Part shown: positions 6,350 through 51,168 of the stretch, piece after piece | Layout of the letters: the number at the start of each line of letters is the position of its first letter | How positions within the stretch are numbered: position 1 is the first letter of the stretch | IMG/VR virus record: IMGVR_UViG_3300047585_000006 | Location: 1-58,092 of that record | Length of the DNA: 58,092 nucleotides | Strand: one strand, 5' to 3' | DNA from: a virus | Program-made: the position numbers and the translations under genes | Notes under the pieces: generated by a model | Told to the model about the DNA's origin: nothing | The model's input: the letters and a program-made list of their open reading frames with translations, nothing else | Databases searched by the model: none

Positions 6350-6733
6350 CTACTCCTTGTAATAGTAATGCTCTTTCGCATGACAATTCGCACAAAGAAC
6401 ATCACACTTCGCAATCTCTGTGACGAGCTTGGCTATATCGAGTCCCTGTGCCATCTTCCCGGACACCTTAAACTCTTTCTTTGATGGGTCTCGGTGATGG
6501 AAAGATAAACACGCCGGATGATTCTCAGGACACCGACCACACTTCAGCGTTTTCTTGTACTCCTGAAACCAAAGACGATTACGCTTTCGTGACTCGTTTC
6601 GTAAGGTATCTCGACATATCTTACAAGTACGATTCTGCTTTCGTCCTGACGCTGCATACTCTGGAGGAGTGTAAGTCGTTTCCGGCGTCCAAGGATGCCC
6701 ACGTTTGCATGTTTCTGATTGAGTCCAAGGCAT
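6350..6733 (-). CDS. Free-standing HNH endonuclease with zinc knuckles
   Basis: The 127-residue protein has three CxxC/CxxH-type metal sites (CKRGH, CKIC, CGRC). The HNH core follows: LSFHHRDPSKKEF, then a linker and CDVLCANCHAKEH at the C-terminus. This is the classical HNH form, distinct from the endonuclease VII-like copies elsewhere in the window. It sits between 6734-6925 and 5990-6346, with its start overlapping the upstream stop (TAGATG). It has no obvious promoter of its own. Confidence 0.85.
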   Translation of the reverse strand: MPWTQSETCKRGHPWTPETTYTPPEYAASGRKQNRTCKICRDTLRNESRKRNRLWFQEYKKTLKCGRCPENHPACLSFHHRDPSKKEFKVSGKMAQGLDIAKLVTEIAKCDVLCANCHAKEHYYYKE

Positions 6734-33073: not shown

Positions 33074-35912
33074 TTACTCGCCTTGCGGCGGGATAAGACA
33101 TTTCTGCTTACCTCTCATAGTTTATCATTTCCTATGAGATCAGACTATCGCATCACACTTTCGTGTGTTCTCTCGCTTAGTCGTTCAGGCTGCCTTGCGG
33201 CTTGCCCCTTGTTGGCATTTCAGCGTCCAAGTCAATCAGAGAGAATTTATACCGCCCCATTGTATTAAGGCGGCGTCAATCTGTCGCATACGGATGGTGG
33301 TATCAGGACCAAGAGAGGTCGTGAAATGCACCCGATACGATGTCCCACAAATTCAGATCAACAACCCGGACAGACGATTATCCGGGGATCAGCCCTTCAG
33401 GATCAGCAACAGTCGGTTCAGCATTCTGCGGGTGTTACCTAGACTGTTAGTAAGGGTTAGTCATTTCTGCTAACCTCTCATACTTACTTTTCGTATGAGA
33501 TCGGACTATTGCATCGCCTTACGGCGTCTTCTCGCTTAGTCTCTCAGCGTACCTTTCGGCTTCGCCCTCGTTGGCATTTCAGCGTTCGAGTCAATCAGAG
33601 AAGATTTTACATCGTCCAGTTTGTTAAACGATGTTGCACTTGATGTTTCGCCAATCGCCGTCACCGTAGGTGGTGTCGTTCTGGGCACCCAGATTGATTG
33701 AGAAGATTCCGTCCTTACCGAAAATGTAAGTGCGGAGTGCCGTCAGACCAGTGACGCCCTTGTAGTTCGAGGTCTTCGTTACAAGGTTCGTCTGGAAGAA
33801 ATGAACTCCGGTTGAAGGCAGTTCAATCACTTCCTCAAGGTCAACGCTGACCAGTTCGTCCATCTTGGCTTGGCCCACCGGAGTGTGCTTCAAGATGTCG
33901 ATTGGAGAGTCGTTGCTGTTATCAGCAAGCACGTCACCCAGAGCGAACGGGTGTATGTAATTGTGTTTGGGTTAAATCGGAAGATTTCCGAACCCTACAT
34001 CACTGTAGGTACGCTCTCATTGTCACCAATGAGTTCAGACTCTATCTTGACTTCTTGCGAAGTCTCTTGCGTATTAGTCGTTAGAGATGACCCACGTTTG
34101 TTCAGTGTTTGCATTTTCCCCAGCAATTCTTTTCGTTTCGCTGCGAGAGTTTCGTCAAAACCGTTGTTGTGCGGAAGCCTGATATACTGAAGGGCTATAT
34201 TCGCCTGCTCTTGTTTGATTACCAGATACGGTAGAATCCCCAAGAGCAACTGCTCACTGTTGGTTCGTCCTTTTGGACGCCAGCCATAAGCAATCTTGTG
34301 TTTCAGATTTGCACGACGGTGATGATAGTATTGTCCACCAAAGTGCTGTACGAGCCACTCCATCAAATCGAGATTCGTATTTGTGACTTCGATACGAATC
34401 GCAGTTGAATCATAAGGACTGCCGTTACTCGACAACCCCTTATGGTGGTAGATACTGAAAGTGCCTTCACCATCAAACATTCCGGCCAGATACGACCAAT
34501 ACACCTTGTCAGGTGTTTTCATAGGTTCTTTCCTCGGTATTTTCTGCTTCGATTCTAATCTAACAGATGTTCACCGATATAGCAAGATTTTTTAACGTTG
34601 GAGCCATACTCTACGCATGTGCTGCGTAGGCTTTGGTGTTAACCCCAACGAATGCTTTGGATGCTTCGTCAAACGGACGGATCGAGCGACCTGCCATCGA
34701 CTGGACAGAGTTACGAATCTGGCTCAGAGACAGTGCAGTGAAGCTGGCCGTGGTCGAAGCAGCAAGCTGCACGAGCACGGAAGCGTCAATGCTGGACGCA
34801 CCGTCGGCGGTTGCACGCACAAGTGCGGACAGGGACTCGCCCAGACGGTAAGACATTTCCTTCGCAACGTTCTCGACGGTGTTGTCAATCGTGGTAGCGA
34901 GAGACAGAGACGAGAAGTTCGCGTAATCTGCGTACTCACCAATGGTCGCGGTGGTAGTCAGAACGCTGATGGACAGAGACGATCCCACAGTCCCTTCCGT
35001 AGTCGGGTTCGTGTTCTGGGCCAGAGGGACGTACATAAACCAATTGTGTTTTGGGTTTAAGGCAGAAAGCCCCCTAGTTCACACTAGGGTCGCTCTACAT
35101 ATCACTATGCAGTTCAGACTCTATCTTTACGACACTGGCGTGTCGATGTTTGACGTATTAGTCGTTGGGGATTCCACATCTTCATCGTACTGGTGGAGAC
35201 TTTTCATTTTCTCCCACAGTTGATAACGTCGTTCAGGATTTTCAACACCTGTCATACGAACGTATTCAAGAGCCGTCACTGCCTGCTCTTGTTTAATTAA
35301 CAGGTATGGTAGGATTCCAAGAAGAAAGGCTTCTACCTTCTTGTGACCCCCTAGGCAAGACCATTTGAAGCATTGTCTTTTCCCTAGTTTTCCGAGAGAG
35401 ACTTCATAGAAATCTCCACCGAAATACCGAACCATCCATCGCATCAACCGCTGAGACGTATTGATTACTGAAATCTTAAGATTGTAATTGTAGTAAGGCG
35501 TGCCTATTTTAGTTTCAGCACAAACCCTACTGATACAAATACATCCTTCGCAATCAACCGCCATCGCTGCCATAGCGAGTTTGGTTTTATCCTGTGTCAT
35601 TATCATGATGTGGTCTTTCCTCCGTCTTGTCTACATTATAGATATTAACGGATATAGTCAAATTTATTTTTAAGTACGGGACTATCATGTAATCTCGTAC
35701 TGGTTACCAGACTTCATGGGGAGGTCGAGGCGTTCCGAACAACGTACGAACGGAGTGTTAGCCTTCAAATTCTCCCTGAATCGCTTATCGTAGTACTTCC
35801 ACCACGATGATTCTTCTGCGGAAATCGAACTTCTCCCAACGTCTGTTTACGGCAAAGTAACCGTGGATTGGGGGAGGTTGGACAACTGATTGCCCGCAGG
35901 CGAAAATGACAT
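33074..35912 (-). CDS. Major capsid protein (N4 gp56-like), split into five exons by four group I introns
   Basis: Join on the minus strand: 35912-35692, 35040-34641, 33956-33627, 33429-33267, 33098-33074. The joined protein is about 350-366 residues. It reads MSFSPAGNQLSNLPQSTV (exon 1), KYYDKRFRENLKANTPF, then across junction 1 SGNQYE-M-FMYVPLAQNT, ATIGEYADYANFSSLSL, across junction 2 KAFVGV-IHPFALGD, across junction 3 IKCNIV-QNAEPTVADPEG, then TSYRVHFTTSLGPDTTIRMR, and across junction 4 QIDAAF-LIPPQGE. This corresponds, from memory, to the N4-gp56-type capsid family. GAAAGG precedes the ATG. Two interruptions remain: TAA at 35849-35847 (codon 22) and a 38-nt stretch 33381-33344 starting with TAA. 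The scaffold-position gene lies directly upstream. Confidence 0.82.
33099..33266 (-). ncRNA. Group I intron 4 in capsid gene, ORF-less
   Basis: The intron is 168 nt. The P1 helix pairs exon CCGCCUU with intron GGGGCGG and puts U-G at the 5' splice site; the intron ends in G. Core elements are visible: a P3/P7 segment CGACUAAGCGAG, a GAAA-capped P8 hairpin (CACAC/GUGUG), GAUAGUCUG for P7 3', and a P9 hairpin (CUCAUAG/CUAUGAG). The sequence is closely related to intron 3 (same blocks GCTGAAATGCCAAC, ACTAAGCGAGA, GAGAGGTxAGCAGAAATG). Confidence 0.8.
33430..33626 (-). ncRNA. Group I intron 3 in capsid gene, ORF-less
   Basis: The intron is 197 nt. P1 pairs exon ACAUCGUU with GACGAUGU (eight pairs, U-G last) and the intron ends in G before CAGAATGCT. 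The core contains GCTGAAATGCCAACGAGG, GAGACUAAGCGAG, a GUAA-capped P8 (CGCC/GGCG), AAUAGUCC and a P9 stem (CUCAUAC/GUAUGAG). Relative to intron 4 it has about 30 extra bases after the P9 region. Confidence 0.8.
33995..34522 (-). CDS. LAGLIDADG homing endonuclease in intron 2
   Basis: A single LAGLIDADG motif lies near the N-terminus (YLAGMFDGEGTFSI, about residues 12-25), so the enzyme should act as a homodimer. Further family signals are VTNTNLDLMEWLVQHFGG and ILPYLVIKQEQANIAL. The 3' end of the gene overlaps intron core structure. It has its own promoter (34557-34585) and a good ribosome site (GAGGAAAG). It presumably targets the intronless capsid allele. Confidence 0.92.
   Translation of the reverse strand: MKTPDKVYWSYLAGMFDGEGTFSIYHHKGLSSNGSPYDSTAIRIEVTNTNLDLMEWLVQHFGGQYYHHRRANLKHKIAYGWRPKGRTNSEQLLLGILPYLVIKQEQANIALQYIRLPHNNGFDETLAAKRKELLGKMQTLNKRGSSLTTNTQETSQEVKIESELIGDNESVPTVM
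34557..34585 (-). promoter_or_regulatory. Promoter for intron 2 endonuclease
   Basis: TTGCTA (34585-34580), a 17-base spacer and TAGATT (34562-34557) lie inside the intron, just ahead of the endonuclease ribosome site. Confidence 0.5.
35127..35606 (-). CDS. LAGLIDADG homing endonuclease in intron 1
   Basis: The 159-residue protein has one LAGLIDADG-type motif (LAMAAMAVDCEGCICI, about residues 10-25). It also has the conserved blocks ISVINTSQRLMRWMVRYFGG and LLGILPYLLIKQEQAVTALE, closely parallel to the intron 2 enzyme. GGAGG lies 11 bases before the ATG, and a promoter is inside the intron. Confidence 0.92.
   Translation of the reverse strand: MIMTQDKTKLAMAAMAVDCEGCICISRVCAETKIGTPYYNYNLKISVINTSQRLMRWMVRYFGGDFYEVSLGKLGKRQCFKWSCLGGHKKVEAFLLGILPYLLIKQEQAVTALEYVRMTGVENPERRYQLWEKMKSLHQYDEDVESPTTNTSNIDTPVS
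35635..35661 (-). promoter_or_regulatory. Promoter for intron 1 endonuclease
   Basis: TTGACT (35661-35656) and a perfect TATAAT (35640-35635) are separated by 15 bases, slightly short. It lies inside intron 1 directly upstream of the endonuclease. Confidence 0.55.
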
Positions 35913-44998: not shown

Positions 44999-46399
44999 TT
45001 AACTTTCAAGCACTATCGCCAAACCCGTCGGGGCGGTCGGCGGTGCCGGAGGAACATTAGGCGGCGATGGCGGAAGTGCAAGACAAATCAATGCACTCGC
45101 CGGAGAAACGTTGAGCCATGTAACCGAACCATCGGTCGTAGTCCCATTAACAGTGCCGTTGAAAGTCGGTCGCGTTGCACCTGAGGTACCCGCAATCACG
45201 ACTTCTTGGAAACTATTTGTGGCGTCGTCAAAAGTAACTTCACCCGCAGAATACTCAGTATTCGCTTGCCAGTTTCCCGCGAAGGGGAGCATGTTGAACA
45301 ACACGACGTTATTGCCCGCGAGGGTAATCGCCCCCGTCAGTGCAAGCAGCCGTCCGTTCACCGTAGCACTCGTATTGACCGTGATGCTGGCTTGGGCTAC
45401 GATAGTCCCGACAAAAGTCGTATCGGTTCCGATTGTGGCGGAACTGCCCACCTGCCAGAACACATTAGCCGCTTGAGCACCGTTGACGAGCAGAATAGCA
45501 CTATCCGATGCCGCAGTTGTCAAGGCACTTCCAATTTGGAATACCCAGACTGCGTTTGGATCGCCTTGAGCGTCCAGAGTCAGAATTCCAGTCACGCCGA
45601 TGGTTGAAGACGAAGTGTAAACACCCGGAGTCAGAGTTTGACCCCCGAGGTCACCCGATATAGTCTGTGTGCTTGTCATCAACATCAGAGCGTTATAGAG
45701 TTGCTGTGCCGCCGCTTCACCATTAGCCGCAACGTAGTCGGCTGCGTGGAACACACCGCTGATAACGCCCGGAGGGAATCCCGTAATAGAAGTACCCGGA
45801 TACGTCCCCACATCGCCTGAGAGATTAGTTGCTCCCGTGCTAGTGACCGTAGTCGCCGCAAGAACGATAAAACTGTCAAGTCCAACAGCGATAGCAGGAG
45901 AGTCTGGAGTTGGTCCGTAAGGGACTGGTGTGGACTCGATGCCGAGGGAATCAGCACTCTCAACGCCACCACTCACTGCCGTGATTTCGTAACTGTACGA
46001 AACGCCGGGATAGACGTTTGAGTCGGTGTATTGAGGAATCTGGTTAGCGAGAGCAACATGAGTTTCTGCAACACCACTAGTATTATCCAGAGTCAAACTC
46101 GTCGCGGTCGAAGCCGTGCAAGCGAAAGTTCCGTTGTTAGAAGCATTACCGAAACCCGCAATCTTGAAAGAAAATCCCGCCCAAGCGTTTCCTGCACCAC
46201 CCGAGAAACTTCCGGCATACGTAGTAGACCCGGATACCGCAGCCGCAACCGAAGAGATACTCCCCGGCGAAAACACTGTCACCAAAGTGGCGTTGATAGG
46301 TGCCACACCTTCGTTACCGGGCAGGGTTCCTCGGTAAACATTGTAACCCGAAACCGGAGTTGCACTCGGGTTCCACTGTAAAACAATTTCATTAGTCAT
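44999..46399 (-). CDS. Virion protein with fibronectin-III-like and ice-binding-like (DUF3494) domains
   Basis: The 466-residue protein has four parts. Residues about 1-160 form a fibronectin-III-like domain with an inserted beta unit. Residues about 172-372 match the DUF3494 ice-binding beta-helix family (LSGDVGTYPGTSITGFPPG, VWVFQIGSALTTAA, NVFWQVGSSATIGTDTTF, NGRLLALTGAITL). A module follows (NTEYSAGEV...GTTTDGSVTWLNV), then a Pro-rich end. It is presumably displayed on the virion. In bacteria this fold binds ice or other surfaces; the ligand here is unknown. Confidence 0.78.
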   Translation of the reverse strand: MTNEIVLQWNPSATPVSGYNVYRGTLPGNEGVAPINATLVTVFSPGSISSVAAAVSGSTTYAGSFSGGAGNAWAGFSFKIAGFGNASNNGTFACTASTATSLTLDNTSGVAETHVALANQIPQYTDSNVYPGVSYSYEITAVSGGVESADSLGIESTPVPYGPTPDSPAIAVGLDSFIVLAATTVTSTGATNLSGDVGTYPGTSITGFPPGVISGVFHAADYVAANGEAAAQQLYNALMLMTSTQTISGDLGGQTLTPGVYTSSSTIGVTGILTLDAQGDPNAVWVFQIGSALTTAASDSAILLVNGAQAANVFWQVGSSATIGTDTTFVGTIVAQASITVNTSATVNGRLLALTGAITLAGNNVVLFNMLPFAGNWQANTEYSAGEVTFDDATNSFQEVVIAGTSGATRPTFNGTVNGTTTDGSVTWLNVSPASALICLALPPSPPNVPPAPPTAPTGLAIVLES

Positions 46400-46596: not shown

Positions 46597-46615
46597 TTAA
46601 CGTGGACGCCAGTCC
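46589..46615 (-). terminator. Intrinsic terminator overlapping the end of 46597-46815
   Basis: On the minus strand, the short stem TGGAC/GTCCA (loop TGGC) within the last codons is followed by a run of about ten T. It separates the small-protein group from the appendage genes downstream. Confidence 0.65.
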
Positions 46616-46815
46616 AACGTCAAACCATCTTCGGCGTACTTCTGTCCATATACGGCCAGCCCTGTTTTTCTCACGGGAGCCGCGACTGTCGCAACTTTAG
46701 AAACTTCAAACTCTACATGTGTTACTTTCACAACGGGTTCCTCAGTAATTTCAACTTGTCGAGGTTCGTGTCGCACTGAGGGGGTCTTTACACTGACAAC
46801 ACCGGGGATGTTCAT
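46597..46815 (-). CDS. Small protein with C-terminal DGLTLDW peptide, 72 aa
   Basis: The protein is Val/Pro/Glu/Thr-rich without an obvious fold and ends KYAEDGLTLDWRPR. This terminal peptide is shared with the proteins at 48096, 48416 and 49499 (YA-DGLT-DW), always within about ten residues of the C-terminus. Function unknown; the peptide may be a docking signal. Confidence 0.6.
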   Translation of the reverse strand: MNIPGVVSVKTPSVRHEPRQVEITEEPVVKVTHVEFEVSKVATVAAPVRKTGLAVYGQKYAEDGLTLDWRPR

Positions 46816-46825
46816 AGTTTTTCCT

Positions 46826-47137
46826 TTACATATCTGTCAGAGTGATAAGACTCTTCTGCGGAGCCGCCGGGGGTACTGGAATCGCCGCGACCGCGTCGGT
46901 CGGGGCCGCTTGTCCTTGTCCGGCTTGTGCTTGCTTCTCGATCATGGCTTTCTTAGCCGCCATCAGCTTCATCGCCTGCTCTTGCAGATCGGTGACGTAG
47001 GAGCGAAGCACCACATTGGCAAAATTCATCATTGCATCTTTTGATTTTTCATCAAACAGCAACCAGAGTCCGCCTTGATTGTACACTTTCAGAAACCCGT
47101 CAACTGCTTGACGATTAACTGTCGGGTGATTGGGCAT
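46826..47137 (-). CDS. Hypothetical protein, 103 aa
   Basis: The ATG at 47137 follows GGGGGA. Helical protein with an Ala/Gln/Lys-rich coiled region (about 45-80) and a Pro/Ala end. It overlaps the 3' end of the upstream gene. Not recognised. Confidence 0.6.
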   Translation of the reverse strand: MPNHPTVNRQAVDGFLKVYNQGGLWLLFDEKSKDAMMNFANVVLRSYVTDLQEQAMKLMAAKKAMIEKQAQAGQGQAAPTDAVAAIPVPPAAPQKSLITLTDM

Positions 47138-47381
47138 CGTATCCCCCATTTTTTATTCGCTTCAACTTTGCTGCGACTTCGTCGTCGATGTTTGGCATCG
47201 GCACTTCGTTGGCCAACGCGGGCTTTGCCGACGTGTCGTCCATGATCTCGACATCGATGAGTCCGGTCAAAACGAGAAAGATATTCATCCAACGTCGTTT
47301 TTCAGTGTCGGTTTTCGCCTTCTTGACCATGAACTTTGCGACGTTTGTCGCCCACACTTTGTGCTCTGAATGTCTTGGCAC
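47115..47381 (-). CDS. Hypothetical protein, 88 aa
   Basis: The GTG start follows GGAGGAG. The first 45 residues are a basic helix (VWATNVAKFMVKKAKTDTEK), the rest acidic. The gene order suggests a virion- or assembly-associated protein. Not recognised. Confidence 0.6.
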   Translation of the reverse strand: MPRHSEHKVWATNVAKFMVKKAKTDTEKRRWMNIFLVLTGLIDVEIMDDTSAKPALANEVPMPNIDDEVAAKLKRIKNGGYDAQSPDS

Positions 47382-47481
47382 GGCTCCTCCGAAATGTCAT
47401 TAGCTCTTGTGGGGTTAACGCGGACTCGCAGTAATCCGCAAAATGATAAGGGTCCGTAAGCACATCATAAATCCGATGCAC
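47302..47481 (-). CDS. Possible small protein, 59 aa, overlapping 47115-47381
   Basis: In the otherwise empty stretch 47382-47595 the minus strand has a GTG-started frame with protein-like content (VHRIYDVLTDPYHFADYCES, then ALTPQELMTF) that continues 80 bases into the next gene. Codon choice is similar to the neighbours, but the ribosome site is weak. Confidence 0.35.
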   Translation of the reverse strand: MHRIYDVLTDPYHFADYCESALTPQELMTFRRSRAKTFRAQSVGDKRRKVHGQEGENRH

Positions 47482-47509
47482 AGCGACACGCTTTCTGTCG
47501 TAACGCGTT

Positions 47510-47545
47510 GGACGCTTCTGGATATTTCTACACAGAAGCGTCCCT
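47510..47545 (-). terminator. Hairpin downstream of 47596-47736
   Basis: An 11-bp stem GGACGCTTCTG/CAGAAGCGTCC lies about 50 bases past the small membrane protein gene. There is no strong T-run, so it may be an attenuator or an RNA-processing structure. Confidence 0.45.
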
Positions 47546-47595
47546 CAAGCAGCCCGTCGGCTGCACGACTTCGCGGTTTGCGAATTCGATAGAGA

Positions 47596-47736
47596 TTACA
47601 ACTTCTTAACGTCCGCTTTGGCGTCCGCTTCAACCTTGGCCCCTTCTTTCGAGAACCAAGACTTGACTTCACGCGAAACCGAAGGAGTAAAAACTCCTAC
47701 AAGATACGCGGCGGCTGCAAATAGAATTGTGTGCAT
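47596..47736 (-). CDS. Small membrane protein, 46 aa
   Basis: The ATG at 47736 has AAGGAG upstream. The N-terminus is hydrophobic (ILFAAAAYLVGVFTP); the rest is charged (EVKSWFSKEGAKVEADAKAD). It resembles small phage inner-membrane proteins. No family is assigned. Confidence 0.6.
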   Translation of the reverse strand: MHTILFAAAAYLVGVFTPSVSREVKSWFSKEGAKVEADAKADVKKL

Positions 47737-47746
47737 GTTTTTCTCC

Positions 47747-48091
47747 TTATTCGTGTTCTGGTGCTTGCGACAGACCATCGCTTGCATGACTTCCCGCCGG
47801 AGGAACCGGATCGGTGTTTAGAGTCGAATAGGTGGAGACCAGTGCGTTGCCTACTGCACCGGGAGTTCCGTCCGCGACAATCTGGGCCGCACGTTGAACC
47901 GTCCCGTTGACCAGCTTCAAGCCAGCCTTGCCGGGAGGAACAGTGCCTAGAATTGTACCGCTGTCGTACGGCGTGATGCCCGTCGAAGTATCGACGTTGC
48001 TATTAGTCGCCGCCAATTGATATTGCTGTACGATGCCTGCGGGTTGCTGACCGGATGCCGCCGCACCATTGGGTTCTAAAATTGCCGCCAT
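47747..48091 (-). CDS. Hypothetical virion-associated protein, 114 aa
   Basis: A low-charge, Ala/Gly/Thr-rich beta-type protein (TGITPYDSGTILGTVPPG). It ends ASDGLSQAPEHE, faintly like the DGLT terminal peptide of its neighbours. It starts 4 bases after the upstream stop. Confidence 0.55.
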   Translation of the reverse strand: MAAILEPNGAAASGQQPAGIVQQYQLAATNSNVDTSTGITPYDSGTILGTVPPGKAGLKLVNGTVQRAAQIVADGTPGAVGNALVSTYSTLNTDPVPPAGSHASDGLSQAPEHE

Positions 48092-48095
48092 GAGA

Positions 48096-48413
48096 TTAAC
48101 CTTTCCATTCCTGCGTTAGCCCATCGGCCTGATATAACTGGCCTGCGATACGCAAACTTCCACCGCGTGCAGCAGGCTTAAAAGCTACCTTCGCGGGAAC
48201 CGCTGCCGGAGCCGGAGTCACTGCGGGTGCAGGTGCGACTGGTGCGACTGGTGCGGGTACTTCCTCGGCCTTGACTTCGGCCTCAACCTTTTCTGCTTCT
48301 TTTTCGGTGGACGTAAAAGCATCGACTACGGCCTGTTTAACGCCAGCTTCAACTTTTTCTGCCTCAGCCAGCAACTTTGCGGCTTCGGCTTTCAAATCAT
48401 CAACGATGCTCAT
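48096..48413 (-). CDS. Coiled-coil protein with C-terminal DGLTQEW peptide, 105 aa
   Basis: Residues 1-50 are an Ala/Glu/Lys coiled coil, 50-80 a Pro/Ala/Val linker, and the C-terminus ends GQLYQADGLTQEWKG, the neighbourhood-wide terminal peptide. The layout (oligomerising helix, flexible linker, terminal tag) suggests a scaffold or decoration molecule. Function unknown. Confidence 0.6.
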   Translation of the reverse strand: MSIVDDLKAEAAKLLAEAEKVEAGVKQAVVDAFTSTEKEAEKVEAEVKAEEVPAPVAPVAPAPAVTPAPAAVPAKVAFKPAARGGSLRIAGQLYQADGLTQEWKG

Positions 48414-48415
48414 GA

Positions 48416-49087
48416 TTATCCCCTGTTGTTCCAGTCTATAGTTAATCCGTCCTTCGCATACTTTATGCGTTGTGGTTGGTTCGCTATACGCTGGTTAATT
48501 TCATCTTGCGTCATGCCGTGATTCGCCATCGGGTAAATCACGAGTGGCCGAACTTTCGGCAGAGCTTGGTACGGATACAACTTCTTCAGAGCTTCGACAA
48601 CTTGACCGTCTGCTGAATAGTCACAATTGTCAGGGAACTTGATGCCCGTGTCCCGGCGATAGATGAACATTGCAGACCCGGTCAAACCAATGCCGGGAGG
48701 ATCACGATGTTCCCTCTTGCCCCGAGCGAGTACCGGATAAATTGCCCATACCCAGGTAACACACTCCAGCGTTCTGAGAACATCTGCGTCTGCATAGTAA
48801 TCGTCGTCATCAATCTGGCAGATGAACTCGCCGGATGTCAGATCGAACGCTTCGCGTCTTGCGAAGTTACCAAAATCTTTTGGGTGTTTCGTGCGTGAGC
48901 AAGCAACGATCTTACGTCGCGGGTCTTTCTTAATCGAATCGAGAACGGCCTGCTCTTTGCGGGTGATGACACAGTCGGTGACGATTATGTGCTCCCACGA
49001 GTCGGAACTCTGACTGTCGATAGAGTCGCACAAACGTTTGAGTGTCGGTCGGCAGAGTGTAGGAGTGATAATCGAATATCTAGGCAT
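48416..49087 (-). CDS. Glycosyltransferase, GT-A (family 2-like), with terminal DGLTIDW peptide
   Basis: The start at 49087 follows AAGAGG. The N-terminal nucleotide-sugar domain is clear: YSIITPTLCRPTLKRLCDSI, then ICQIDDDDYYADADVL with the DxD-type metal motif (about 95-100), and an acceptor-side segment. The C-terminus ends KYAKDGLTIDWNNRG. It would transfer sugars onto DNA, virion proteins or host glycans; the acceptor is unknown. Two further glycosyltransferase-like genes lie upstream. Confidence 0.82.
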   Translation of the reverse strand: MPRYSIITPTLCRPTLKRLCDSIDSQSSDSWEHIIVTDCVITRKEQAVLDSIKKDPRRKIVACSRTKHPKDFGNFARREAFDLTSGEFICQIDDDDYYADADVLRTLECVTWVWAIYPVLARGKREHRDPPGIGLTGSAMFIYRRDTGIKFPDNCDYSADGQVVEALKKLYPYQALPKVRPLVIYPMANHGMTQDEINQRIANQPQRIKYAKDGLTIDWNNRG

Positions 49088-49487
49088 TGGAATGCCTCTT
49101 AACGTATTCGATTGCACGCTGCATCAACTCGATATCATCACCAAACATGCCCAGCCCACTGTTGCACGCACGACACAACATTTCACGAACTTTCTTAGTC
49201 GTATGATCGTGGTCAACAAACAACTTTTCGCACGGGCGTTTACAGAGGCTACAACGACCATCTGCGTCCTTCAACATTTTCTCATATTGTTGAGGGGTTA
49301 ATCCGTAACGGATGCGAAGGTGCCAATTCTTGATCCCCTCCGCAATTTTGATTTTCGCAACCGTCGTATTTTGAGTTGCCTTCTTACAAGTCTTACAATA
49401 CCTTTGTCCCGTTGCGGGACGTTGATAAGTGTTCTCGGGCGTAAGTTCGTGTCCCTTGAAACAGTGGGTACGTCGTTTTCCTGCCAT
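49080..49487 (-). CDS. Free-standing homing endonuclease, endonuclease VII-like
   Basis: Motifs: CFKGHELTPENTY...CKTCK, YGLTPQQYEKML, CSLCKRP, FVDHDHTTKKVREMLC and CNSGLGMFGDDI...AIEYV. AGGAG precedes the ATG. It is inserted between two glycosyltransferase genes, its stop overlapping the next start by eight bases. Confidence 0.92.
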   Translation of the reverse strand: MAGKRRTHCFKGHELTPENTYQRPATGQRYCKTCKKATQNTTVAKIKIAEGIKNWHLRIRYGLTPQQYEKMLKDADGRCSLCKRPCEKLFVDHDHTTKKVREMLCRACNSGLGMFGDDIELMQRAIEYVKRHSNA

Positions 49488-49498
49488 ATAGGTTTCTC

Positions 49499-50452
49499 CT
49501 AACCTACATTATGCATTTCAAACCAATCTAAAGTCAACCCATCAGCAGCATACTTTGTAAGGTTTCCCCTCTTAGATTTTCTTGAGGGCTTGACTTCAGC
49601 CGCGTCGTTCTCGACAGGCCACGGTAGCGTCCAGCGGTCGCTAATCTTGGATCGCCACGCGTTGCCGCGTTCATACTGATGGACGACGCAATAAGGCGTG
49701 TCGCTTCCGAACGGGTACGCGATACCGTCGCGTAGTTCCGGCGGCGTAGGAACGAGGTTGGAATTTCTTCCGATGGGTTGGTCCGGGTTGCCGTTGCAAT
49801 TCCCGATCAACCACCAACCGGAGGTCATGATGAACCCTTCGTCTGCACGAGGGATTCTCATTTCGTCCTTGAACTCCGTTCGCAAGAGAACGTTGAGTGC
49901 TGCTTGGTCGTCACCGAATCGGTCGGTCGATGATTCGTAGATGCGGGAGACGATGCGGTGTACCGCGTCGGCCTCTCCCGCGATAGTGCCAGCACAAACG
50001 ACTTCTTCGTTCTGAAGCGTGTCGAGAGTCTGCTGGCCGTAGAGTTTGACGATCCACGCGGGGTTACAGAACTCGTTGCGGTAAAGAATGAACTCGCTGG
50101 CACCGAAGAGTTTCGCGGTCTGCTGTTCCATCCACGGAGACGGATCACGTTGGAACACGACATCGCGTACATCACAGTGTATAATGTACCGAATGTCTTT
50201 CTTGTTCACCGCTAGCCAGTCACGGAAGATTCTGAATCGCTCGATGACGGTGTTGTTTCCGGTGCTGACGTAATCGACAAGTTCAAATCCGAGGCGGGTG
50301 AGGGTTTCTCGGGCTGTTCGGGTGATGTCACAGACAAAGAGGATTTTTCGTCCACGGAAGCCGGACTCGCTGAGGGAGACGGCGTAGTTTTTGAAACTGG
50401 CCCATCCGTATCCTTTGGCTGTTCCAATGACGACATCGTTCGTAGCGTCCAT
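49499..50452 (-). CDS. Glycosyltransferase-like protein with terminal DGLTLDW peptide
   Basis: The ATG at 50452 opens a nucleotide-diphospho-sugar-transferase-type fold: VVIGTAKGYGWASFKNYAVS, then YIIHCDVRDVVFQRDP with a DxxD metal motif (about 94-105), and GDDQAALNVLL typical of such enzymes. The protein ends LTKYAADGLTLDWFEMHNVG. The first 240 bases overlap the previous gene in another frame. Acceptor unknown. Confidence 0.75.
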   Translation of the reverse strand: MDATNDVVIGTAKGYGWASFKNYAVSLSESGFRGRKILFVCDITRTARETLTRLGFELVDYVSTGNNTVIERFRIFRDWLAVNKKDIRYIIHCDVRDVVFQRDPSPWMEQQTAKLFGASEFILYRNEFCNPAWIVKLYGQQTLDTLQNEEVVCAGTIAGEADAVHRIVSRIYESSTDRFGDDQAALNVLLRTEFKDEMRIPRADEGFIMTSGWWLIGNCNGNPDQPIGRNSNLVPTPPELRDGIAYPFGSDTPYCVVHQYERGNAWRSKISDRWTLPWPVENDAAEVKPSRKSKRGNLTKYAADGLTLDWFEMHNVG

Positions 50453-51129
50453 AGGCTCCTCATAATGCTGGGCGTACAAGAGTGAATCGAAGCGTATTTC
50501 GCATCAGCAAGAGTCGCACGATATTCATCATTAAAGCCATGCCGAATGCTGTCGATGCAGTGACGAGAAATACCGTTCGTCTTCATCGCATCGCCGATCC
50601 ACAAGTCGTCAGCGACAGAGGTAATCTGGGCCGACACGAGAATTCCCATTGCTCTGCTGCTCAGAAAGACACATGAGCCCGGTGCGAATGATCCCTGTAG
50701 TCCGCCAGAATAATCATGGCCTGTGAAGTCAGTCGCAAATAGTCGGTCGGGATATATGAAGGTGTCGTCATCCACGAGGCAGACGTAATCGTACTCGTGT
50801 GCGAGTGCGTACTTGCAAATCGCTTTGACCTTCTGCGAGTTCGCAGTGTACTGGTCGCTGCACGGCAAGAACACTTCGTCTGCGGAGGGTTCACGCATGA
50901 CGTTGAGGTTCGGGTTGACTCGACGCTCAGGATTCGAGCGGAGCCGGGAGCCGTAGAAGAACTTGTAGTCGATGTCGCCAAGGCCGCTGATGAACGTCTC
51001 ACGCTGGGCTGCGACACGCTCAGGCTGGTTTGTGTGGCGAAGGCCACGCTGATTCAACCAGTCGATTGTTTGATCGTCGAAAAAATAATCCAGACGATGA
51101 CACGTCTTCACTGCGACAAGAATCTTCAT
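50212..51129 (-). CDS. Fringe/galactosyltransferase-like glycosyltransferase with overlapping tail
   Basis: GGAGGAG precedes the ATG at 51129. The catalytic part covers about residues 1-225: ILVAVKTCHRL, YDYVCLVDDDTFIYPDRLF with a DDD metal motif, and WIGDAMKTNG, as in beta-3-glycosyltransferases. After that the frame continues for 80 codons as a Ser/Pro/Thr-rich tail. There the same DNA encodes the next gene's N-terminus. Either the tail is real (dual coding) or the stop was lost. Confidence 0.72.
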   Translation of the reverse strand: MKILVAVKTCHRLDYFFDDQTIDWLNQRGLRHTNQPERVAAQRETFISGLGDIDYKFFYGSRLRSNPERRVNPNLNVMREPSADEVFLPCSDQYTANSQKVKAICKYALAHEYDYVCLVDDDTFIYPDRLFATDFTGHDYSGGLQGSFAPGSCVFLSSRAMGILVSAQITSVADDLWIGDAMKTNGISRHCIDSIRHGFNDEYRATLADAKYASIHSCTPSIMRSLWTLRTMSSLEQPKDTDGPVSKTTPSPSASPASVDEKSSLSVTSPEQPEKPSPASDLNLSITSAPETTPSSSDSESSVTG

Positions 51130-51168
51130 TGCTCCTCCAGAAAAGTCAAAGGGCTTGCTCAACACTTA

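Follow-up and report, generated by a model that had tools for sequence, protein, structure and literature searches.

Why should four neighbouring proteins of one phage, two of them glycosyltransferase-like and two of them small, end in nearly the same ten residues? This question is raised by the viral record IMGVR_UViG_3300047585_000006, of which a stretch of 58,092 nt (the window) was analyzed. Proteins 46597, 47747, 48096, 48416, and 49499 are named after the coordinates of their open reading frames (ORFs) in the window; L-numbers (viral contigs) and G-numbers (genomes compared) are working labels. The minus strand encodes all four proteins, each of which finishes with the pattern Y-x-x-D-G-L-T-x-[DE]-W (the tag) and 2–7 further residues after the Trp: KYAEDGLTLDW and RPR in 46597, LYQADGLTQEW and KG in 48096, KYAKDGLTIDW and NNRG in 48416, and KYAADGLTLDW and FEMHNVG in 49499. 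Examples of the tag peptide are KYAADGLTLDWFEMHNVG and KYDKSGLVTNWWDRHRK.

An earlier note on this DNA had reported the shared C-terminal peptide, and its sequences and coordinates were confirmed. The differing codons to which it pointed were also evident across the four proteins (Gly GGT/GGG/GGA/GGG, Leu TTG/CTA/TTA/TTG, and Thr ACG/ACG/ACT/ACT); between 49499 and 48416, 9 of the 33 tag bases are different, most of them at third positions. Synonymous differences at shared codons argue against recent copying of the tag DNA, and the codon divergence between tags rules out DNA-level conservation or gene conversion. The pattern Y..DGLT.[DE]W was observed four times in the window proteome, with approximately 2e-5 occurrences expected from amino-acid composition; this expectation and the exact-pattern scans given below rule out a chance origin. 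The note had also suggested that 47747 may end in a weaker copy of the tag. That ending, [DN]GLS..P..E, has neither Tyr nor Trp; it is conserved within the 47747 family and is thus a family-specific feature rather than a tag copy.

The exact DNA pattern TAYGCNNNNGAYGGNYTNACNNNNGAYTGG (36 bits) was scanned over 2.9 million viral contigs and matched 11 stretches, all from relatives of the window phage; all whole contigs fetched have terminase, portal, or other head genes in common with the window. Tagged proteins were present in each matched relative. Among them are GT-A (the family of 49499) and GT2-B (that of 48416), with the tag at the C-terminus. Another GT2 enzyme bears it at the N-terminus (L006, L007, L008, and L011), a GT31–GT2 fusion in L003 has it between its two domains, and small tagged proteins were found in L002, L005, and L016. 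Homologs of the small window proteins, for which no known domain was matched, are tagged as well: that of 46597 in G008 (57% identity; YASDGLTIEW in G008/L016) and that of 48096 in G003 (43% identity; YAADGLTIEW). AAGGA precedes 46597.

In the genome collection, the pattern had three matches, of which one lies on a relative's contig within a Bacteroidetes metagenome-assembled genome (MAG) and two are chance matches internal to unrelated proteins. A conserved host motif was rejected, since the exact DGLT pattern was not terminal in approximately 85,000 bacterial and archaeal species genomes, except on the phage contig in one MAG. Among the isolated phages of INPHARED, tblastn searches with GT3 (the GT31-like enzyme of the window), the GT31 enzyme of L206, and the 48096 protein gave no match, and GT-A gave one remote match. 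Of the isolated phages, a related portal was found only in Tunturiibacter phage Tunturi_3 (portal 59%, terminase 46%), the host of which belongs to Acidobacteriota (PMC11924767). We failed to detect in Tunturi_3 a glycosyltransferase cassette, a 47747 homolog, or a tag. The tag lineage is thus far one of uncultured soil-type phages. Short docking and targeting tags are already known; no such tag on phage glycosyltransferases was described in the open-access literature searched.

The peptide is an add-on, lying outside folded domains, independent of position, and carried by unrelated proteins. GT-A sequences form two clades only 37–39% identical overall, in which eight of ten tag residues (Y, A, D, G, L, T, D, and W) are invariant, while the linker before the tag contains no invariant column in the alignment; the same pattern of conserved tag and variable linker was found for GT2-B. 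GT-A homologs in other, unrelated viruses end at or near ..HQYDR, the end of the catalytic domain, before the tag. Contig L092 (109.7 kb) encodes GT-A, an RmlD-like enzyme, and GT2 with 68%, 60%, and 54% identity, respectively, to those of G005; both G005 tags are absent there, with Arg/Pro-rich tails instead, and no homolog of the lineage portal protein was found in L092. At the sites of the lost tags, GT2 and GT-A of L092 (8179–10897) have Arg-rich RFLRR and RFSRR stretches, which are too weak to be claimed as a replacement tag. The AlphaFold2 model of a natural GT31–tag–GT2 fusion, built on a 14-sequence alignment, had a mean predicted local distance difference test (pLDDT) value of 61, with the tag in a stretch below 50. 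Foldseek matches of this model to chondroitin synthase CHSY3–CHPF, B3GNT2, and GT2 enzymes support the glycosyltransferase family assignment.

The peptide is accordingly not part of a folded domain shared by the four proteins, and it does occur in relatives; neither of the two findings that the note named as refuting was thus made. The earlier view of it as a selected functional add-on of docking character finds support in the linker contrast, the varied positions and carriers, and the tagless L092 enzymes. Its placement is C-terminal in the four window proteins; in the relatives it is also N-terminal or inter-domain; the carriers, called unrelated, are so by family, with 48416 and 49499 both being glycosyltransferase-like.

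Further phages of the lineage were found by terminase- and 47747-based scans. This wider set, with the same head genes, contained the variants YDxSGLVTNWWDRH and NDLVxDWFDTHP; variant tags include YDRTGLVVDWWDLHPEG, YDSTGLITNWWDRHPR, YAPGGLVTNWWDRH, YDKSGLVTNWWDRHRK, YDHSGLVTNWWDRHNRR, YASDGMAVNWWSTH, YADNTNLVQNWWDTH, RNDLCRDWFDTHPRK, and NDLVRDWFDTHPH. The consensus is approximately Y-x-x-x-[GDN]-L-[TV]-x-[DN]-W, often continued by [WF]-D-x-H-P-[RK]. With a weight matrix, 41 tagged ORFs were found (36 glycosyltransferases and 5 small proteins; 35 tags C-terminal, 5 N-terminal, and 1 inter-domain), a count tallied by hand from the matrix list, in which a few contigs overlap in kind. The matrix was trained on the same tags and therefore measures their spread, not their discovery. 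No head, tail, or other structural protein scored as tagged; the remaining matches were outside the lineage or low-scoring, the strongest being an internal match in L019. Besides small proteins, the carriers belong to GT-A, GT2, GT31-like, GT32-like/GT2, and methyltransferase–GT31 families and include GT2 double enzymes, a methyltransferase–GT31 fusion (L218), and an 812-residue GT32-like/GT2 enzyme (L241). Pfam glycosyltransferase domains above the curated cut-off were identified in 48416 (PF00535) and in proteins of L172, L204, L206, L212, L218, L238, and L241; the GT-A family had no Pfam match and only a weak PHROG glycosyltransferase match. On a tree of terminases, members with DGMAVNWW and NDLxxDWF tags fall between those of the DGLT type, and tags of both the DGLT and the NDLV type occur in L204; strict tracking of phage lineage by tag sequence is thereby ruled out. 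Since the types intermix on the tree, the DGLT and GLV.NWW forms seem able to replace each other and not to be lineage-bound.

The ORF directly upstream of the 47747 homolog was tagged in 25 of 28 evaluable loci, whatever its family, although some of these loci come from near-identical contigs and the independent number is lower. This slot is occupied by GT-A, GT2-B, a GT31-like or GT32-like/GT2 enzyme, an N-terminally tagged GT2, or 48096. The exceptions were L225, with the tag one gene further upstream, and L242 and L243, with untagged glycosyltransferases and diverged 47747 homologs. Homologs of 47747 were encoded in all nine tagged genomes compared. Of the four tagless genomes, G018, Tunturi_3, and G011 had none, and G016 had a diverged one (approximately 42–44% identity). 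Neither a Pfam or PHROG family nor a solved structural relative was found for 47747. Beside it, a small protein (47596–47787, minus strand; also in L131, L140, and L223) combines a hydrophobic N-terminus with a tail rich in Lys, Ala, and Glu; it is similar to the charged portion of 48096 and is present even in tagless L140.

Being short, outside folds, position independent, borne by unrelated enzymes, and absent from their L092 counterparts, the tag looks like a docking motif. With somewhat better than even confidence, we consider it a position-independent docking motif through which the glycosyltransferases gather at one partner encoded by the phage, perhaps the product of 47747. One phage lineage would put the tag on its glycosyltransferases; on a flexible linker at either terminus, or between fused catalytic domains, it would recruit the enzyme to the common partner, and a single acceptor would be served, in a single location, by different transferases and, in different phages, by different enzymes. 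In such an arrangement the tag would be an invariant plug to which interchangeable catalytic domains are joined. Gene order suggests the Ser/Thr-rich 47747 product as the likeliest partner, perhaps a scaffold or the glycosylated protein itself, while the small tagged non-enzymes might bring another component to that site or fill it themselves. What we infer here is protein binding by the tag, the identity of the partner, and what is glycosylated.

A similar peptide is found at the end of the phage ribonucleotide reductase subunit R2, which in four viral contigs (L015, L029, L031, and L036; two of the four confirmed by Pfam) ends in YS[SA]DGLTG[ED]W; some phage R2 tails read YSSDGLTGEW. The C-terminal tail of R2 is a peptide docking on R1, so the sequence class of YSSDGLTGEW can serve as a docking peptide. 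The carriers of our tag, however, are glycosyltransferases or small proteins, not R2, and R1 (Ribonuc_red_lgC) was not detected in the glycosyltransferase phages G000, G001, G002, G005, and G007; the likeness is most likely convergence.

Regarding the acceptor, DNA, the host surface, and the virion are all possible. An RmlD-like sugar enzyme in the G005 cassette and other sugar-nucleotide or sugar-modifying enzymes, recognized by sequence resemblance in several cassettes, would suit glycan building on an acceptor. DNA glycosylation via a thymidylate-synthase-like enzyme was rejected, as no Thymidylat_synt domain was found in 11 records, several of which are fragments; in the Tet_JBP search, the control itself matched nowhere. 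A further, rather doubtful proposal is a plug-in system in which swapped glycosyltransferases would share a single docking code and a single receptor, the product of 47747, the particle glycan changing while assembly of the complex stays constant. Docking, if true, would explain the free swapping of sugar-building enzymes in one phage lineage and provide a genetically encoded plug for enzyme assembly. Targets of phage glycosyltransferases are often unknown, and a docking tag common to these enzymes can lead straight to them: whatever the peptide binds is probably scaffold or substrate. The tag also allows glycosylation modules of uncultured phages to be searched for by sequence.

Several observations weigh against the docking reading. 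The 47747 partner is a candidate named by gene order; the association may reflect operon order or lineage, and because the small genes 31748 and 37115 share the presence pattern of 47747, it is a lead, not proof. G016 and L243 combine diverged 47747 homologs with untagged glycosyltransferases, and G012 is tagged though its 47747 homolog is only 33% identical to that of the window. The AlphaFold2 model of 47747 (mean pLDDT of 43) was too poor to use, and the small alignment behind the low pLDDT of the tag counts on the same side. Some variant tags are without Tyr, so the fixed core is small; most loci of the wider lineage encode a single tagged protein, so multi-enzyme assembly is not general.

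The tag could instead bind the prohead or capsid and carry its bearers into or onto the particle, which we regard as unlikely. The genes around the cassette are head and tail genes, with those of the terminase, portal, and major head protein close by; some carriers are small and without an enzyme domain; and the tag goes with the head-gene lineage, being absent from the same enzymes in L092. Two known systems work in this manner. The encapsulin cargo-loading peptide is short, conserved, usually C-terminal after a flexible linker, and marks unrelated enzymes for one partner; the phage tag resembles it in being terminal, after a linker, and on diverse carriers, but almost all of its carriers are glycosyltransferases, and it can be N-terminal or inter-domain as well; no encapsulin shell is known here, and only the phage's own major head protein (phrog_1357) was seen. 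The capsid-targeting sequence (CTS) of T4 is likewise common to different internal head proteins, but it is N-terminal and cleaved off, whereas 35 of the 41 tags are C-terminal. Against packaging, moreover, the cargo would be almost only glycosyltransferases, which need nucleotide sugars from the living cell. In Tunturi_3 the head is homologous (portal 59%) but no protein is tagged, and G016 has head genes and untagged glycosyltransferases; the head alone therefore does not require the tag. That the tag is almost restricted to glycosyltransferases, beside 47747, is explained by docking to a glycosylation partner no less well than by packaging. Glycogenin offers a parallel for such docking: a short conserved C-terminal motif on a flexible linker binds glycogen synthase and so docks one sugar-transferring enzyme on the other. 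The motif of glycogenin is, however, confined to one enzyme family, and its sequence is, to our knowledge, unrelated to the phage tag.

Glycosylation of the tag itself on Tyr or Thr, as an acceptor or primer sequon in the manner of glycogenin-like self-glycosylation, is quite improbable: small non-enzymatic carriers and the invariant Tyr and Thr of the GT-A and GT2-B sets would agree with it, but variants replace Thr with Val, Ala, Ile, or Cys and lose Tyr (RNDLCRDWF, RQDLVVDWF), and the residues kept across the set, approximately Leu-x-x-[DNE]-Trp, are not usual O-glycan acceptors. GT3, which is present in all lineage members compared, bears on another explanation, in which the peptide is a part of the glycosyltransferase fold (a C-terminal active-site lid) and tags may be copied from or swapped with an internal element. 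Right after its first strand, GT3 contains Y[YF][IF]DDLT.DW (YTNDTSGLVRDWFQRP in L204), and these segments rank just below true tags by matrix score among 708 ORF N-termini. In GT3 the tag motif may have been incorporated into a loop, or the segment may be a feature of this glycosyltransferase family with no relation to the tag; it is missing in the GT3 of L092 and degenerate in those of L128 and L131. With such degenerate forms, N-terminal and inter-domain tags, carriers without a glycosyltransferase domain, and tagless homologs otherwise of full length, a fold part appears very improbable. Hardly credible, finally, is a passive relic, in which an end-of-gene module or recombination site is simply retained upstream of 47747 during glycosyltransferase exchange, with no role for the peptide. 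The slot upstream of 47747 is indeed nearly always tagged despite its changing enzyme family; against this, most shared codons differ synonymously, N-terminal tags and tags on more distant upstream genes occur, and the protein pattern is conserved over deeply diverged phages.

Table 1. Tags, their carriers, and associated genes in the window.
Feature	Position	Strand	Remarks
Tag KYAEDGLTLDW	46609..46641	-	C-terminus of 72-aa (amino acid) protein; tagged homolog in G008/L016
46597, small Pro/Val-rich tagged protein without enzyme domain	46597..46815	-	Beside ice-binding-like gene 44999
47747, 114-aa Ser/Thr/Gly/Ala-rich protein, fold unassigned	47747..48091	-	Directly downstream of tagged gene in 25/28 loci
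Tag LYQADGLTQEW	48105..48137	-	C-terminus of 105-aa protein; tagged homolog in G003
48096, small tagged protein	48096..48413	-	Charged Ala/Lys/Glu-rich N-part, Pro/Ala-rich linker, tag; directly upstream of 47747
Tag KYAKDGLTIDW	48431..48463	-	C-terminus of GT2 enzyme
48416, GT2-B, Glycos_transf_2 glycosyltransferase	48416..49117	-	Pfam PF00535, E=1.8e-8; alignment
Tag KYAADGLTLDW	49523..49555	-	C-terminus of GT-A
49499, GT-A, putative glycosyltransferase	49499..50479	-	PHROG 1579 glycosyltransferase, E=4e-4; alignment
Tag-like internal segment YFFDDQTIDW in GT3	51058..51087	-	Loop after first strand; meaning uncertain
GT3, GT31-like (weak Galactosyl_T), no terminal tag	50212..51165	-	Foldseek B3GNT2/CHSY3 for G002 fusion containing GT3 homolog

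The aligned relatives of GT-A begin at MDATND, near 50452. A Ser/Pro-rich C-terminal extension of GT3 (50212–50452, minus strand) overlaps the start of GT-A in another frame; it is also present in G003 and absent from the other aligned relatives.

The product of the 44999 gene (44999–46399, minus strand), the neighbor of 46597, contains an ice-binding-like domain (PF11999, E=8e-60) and matches fn3 weakly; its gene adjoins the collagen-like, tail-fibre-like gene 44309. The ice-binding-like protein is 91% identical to its copy in G008, where the tagged 46597 homolog is also adjacent. A helical-looking protein conserved in the lineage is encoded at 46826–47149 (minus strand); its family ends in [SR]-[IL]-x-L-T-D, possibly a second terminal peptide signal.

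The major head protein gene (33624–35060, minus strand) seems interrupted: its C-terminal 102 codons are 83–96% identical to those of relatives, and a LAGLIDADG-like ORF (33995–34522) lies upstream of them, as in G008. The interruption is likely an intron or a similar insertion. Many mutually similar ORFs resembling HNH endonucleases by the look of their sequences lie between the genes, at 6350, 18790, 27016, 28757, 41584, 42857, 49080, 51169, and 52936, and such ORFs are found throughout the relatives as well.

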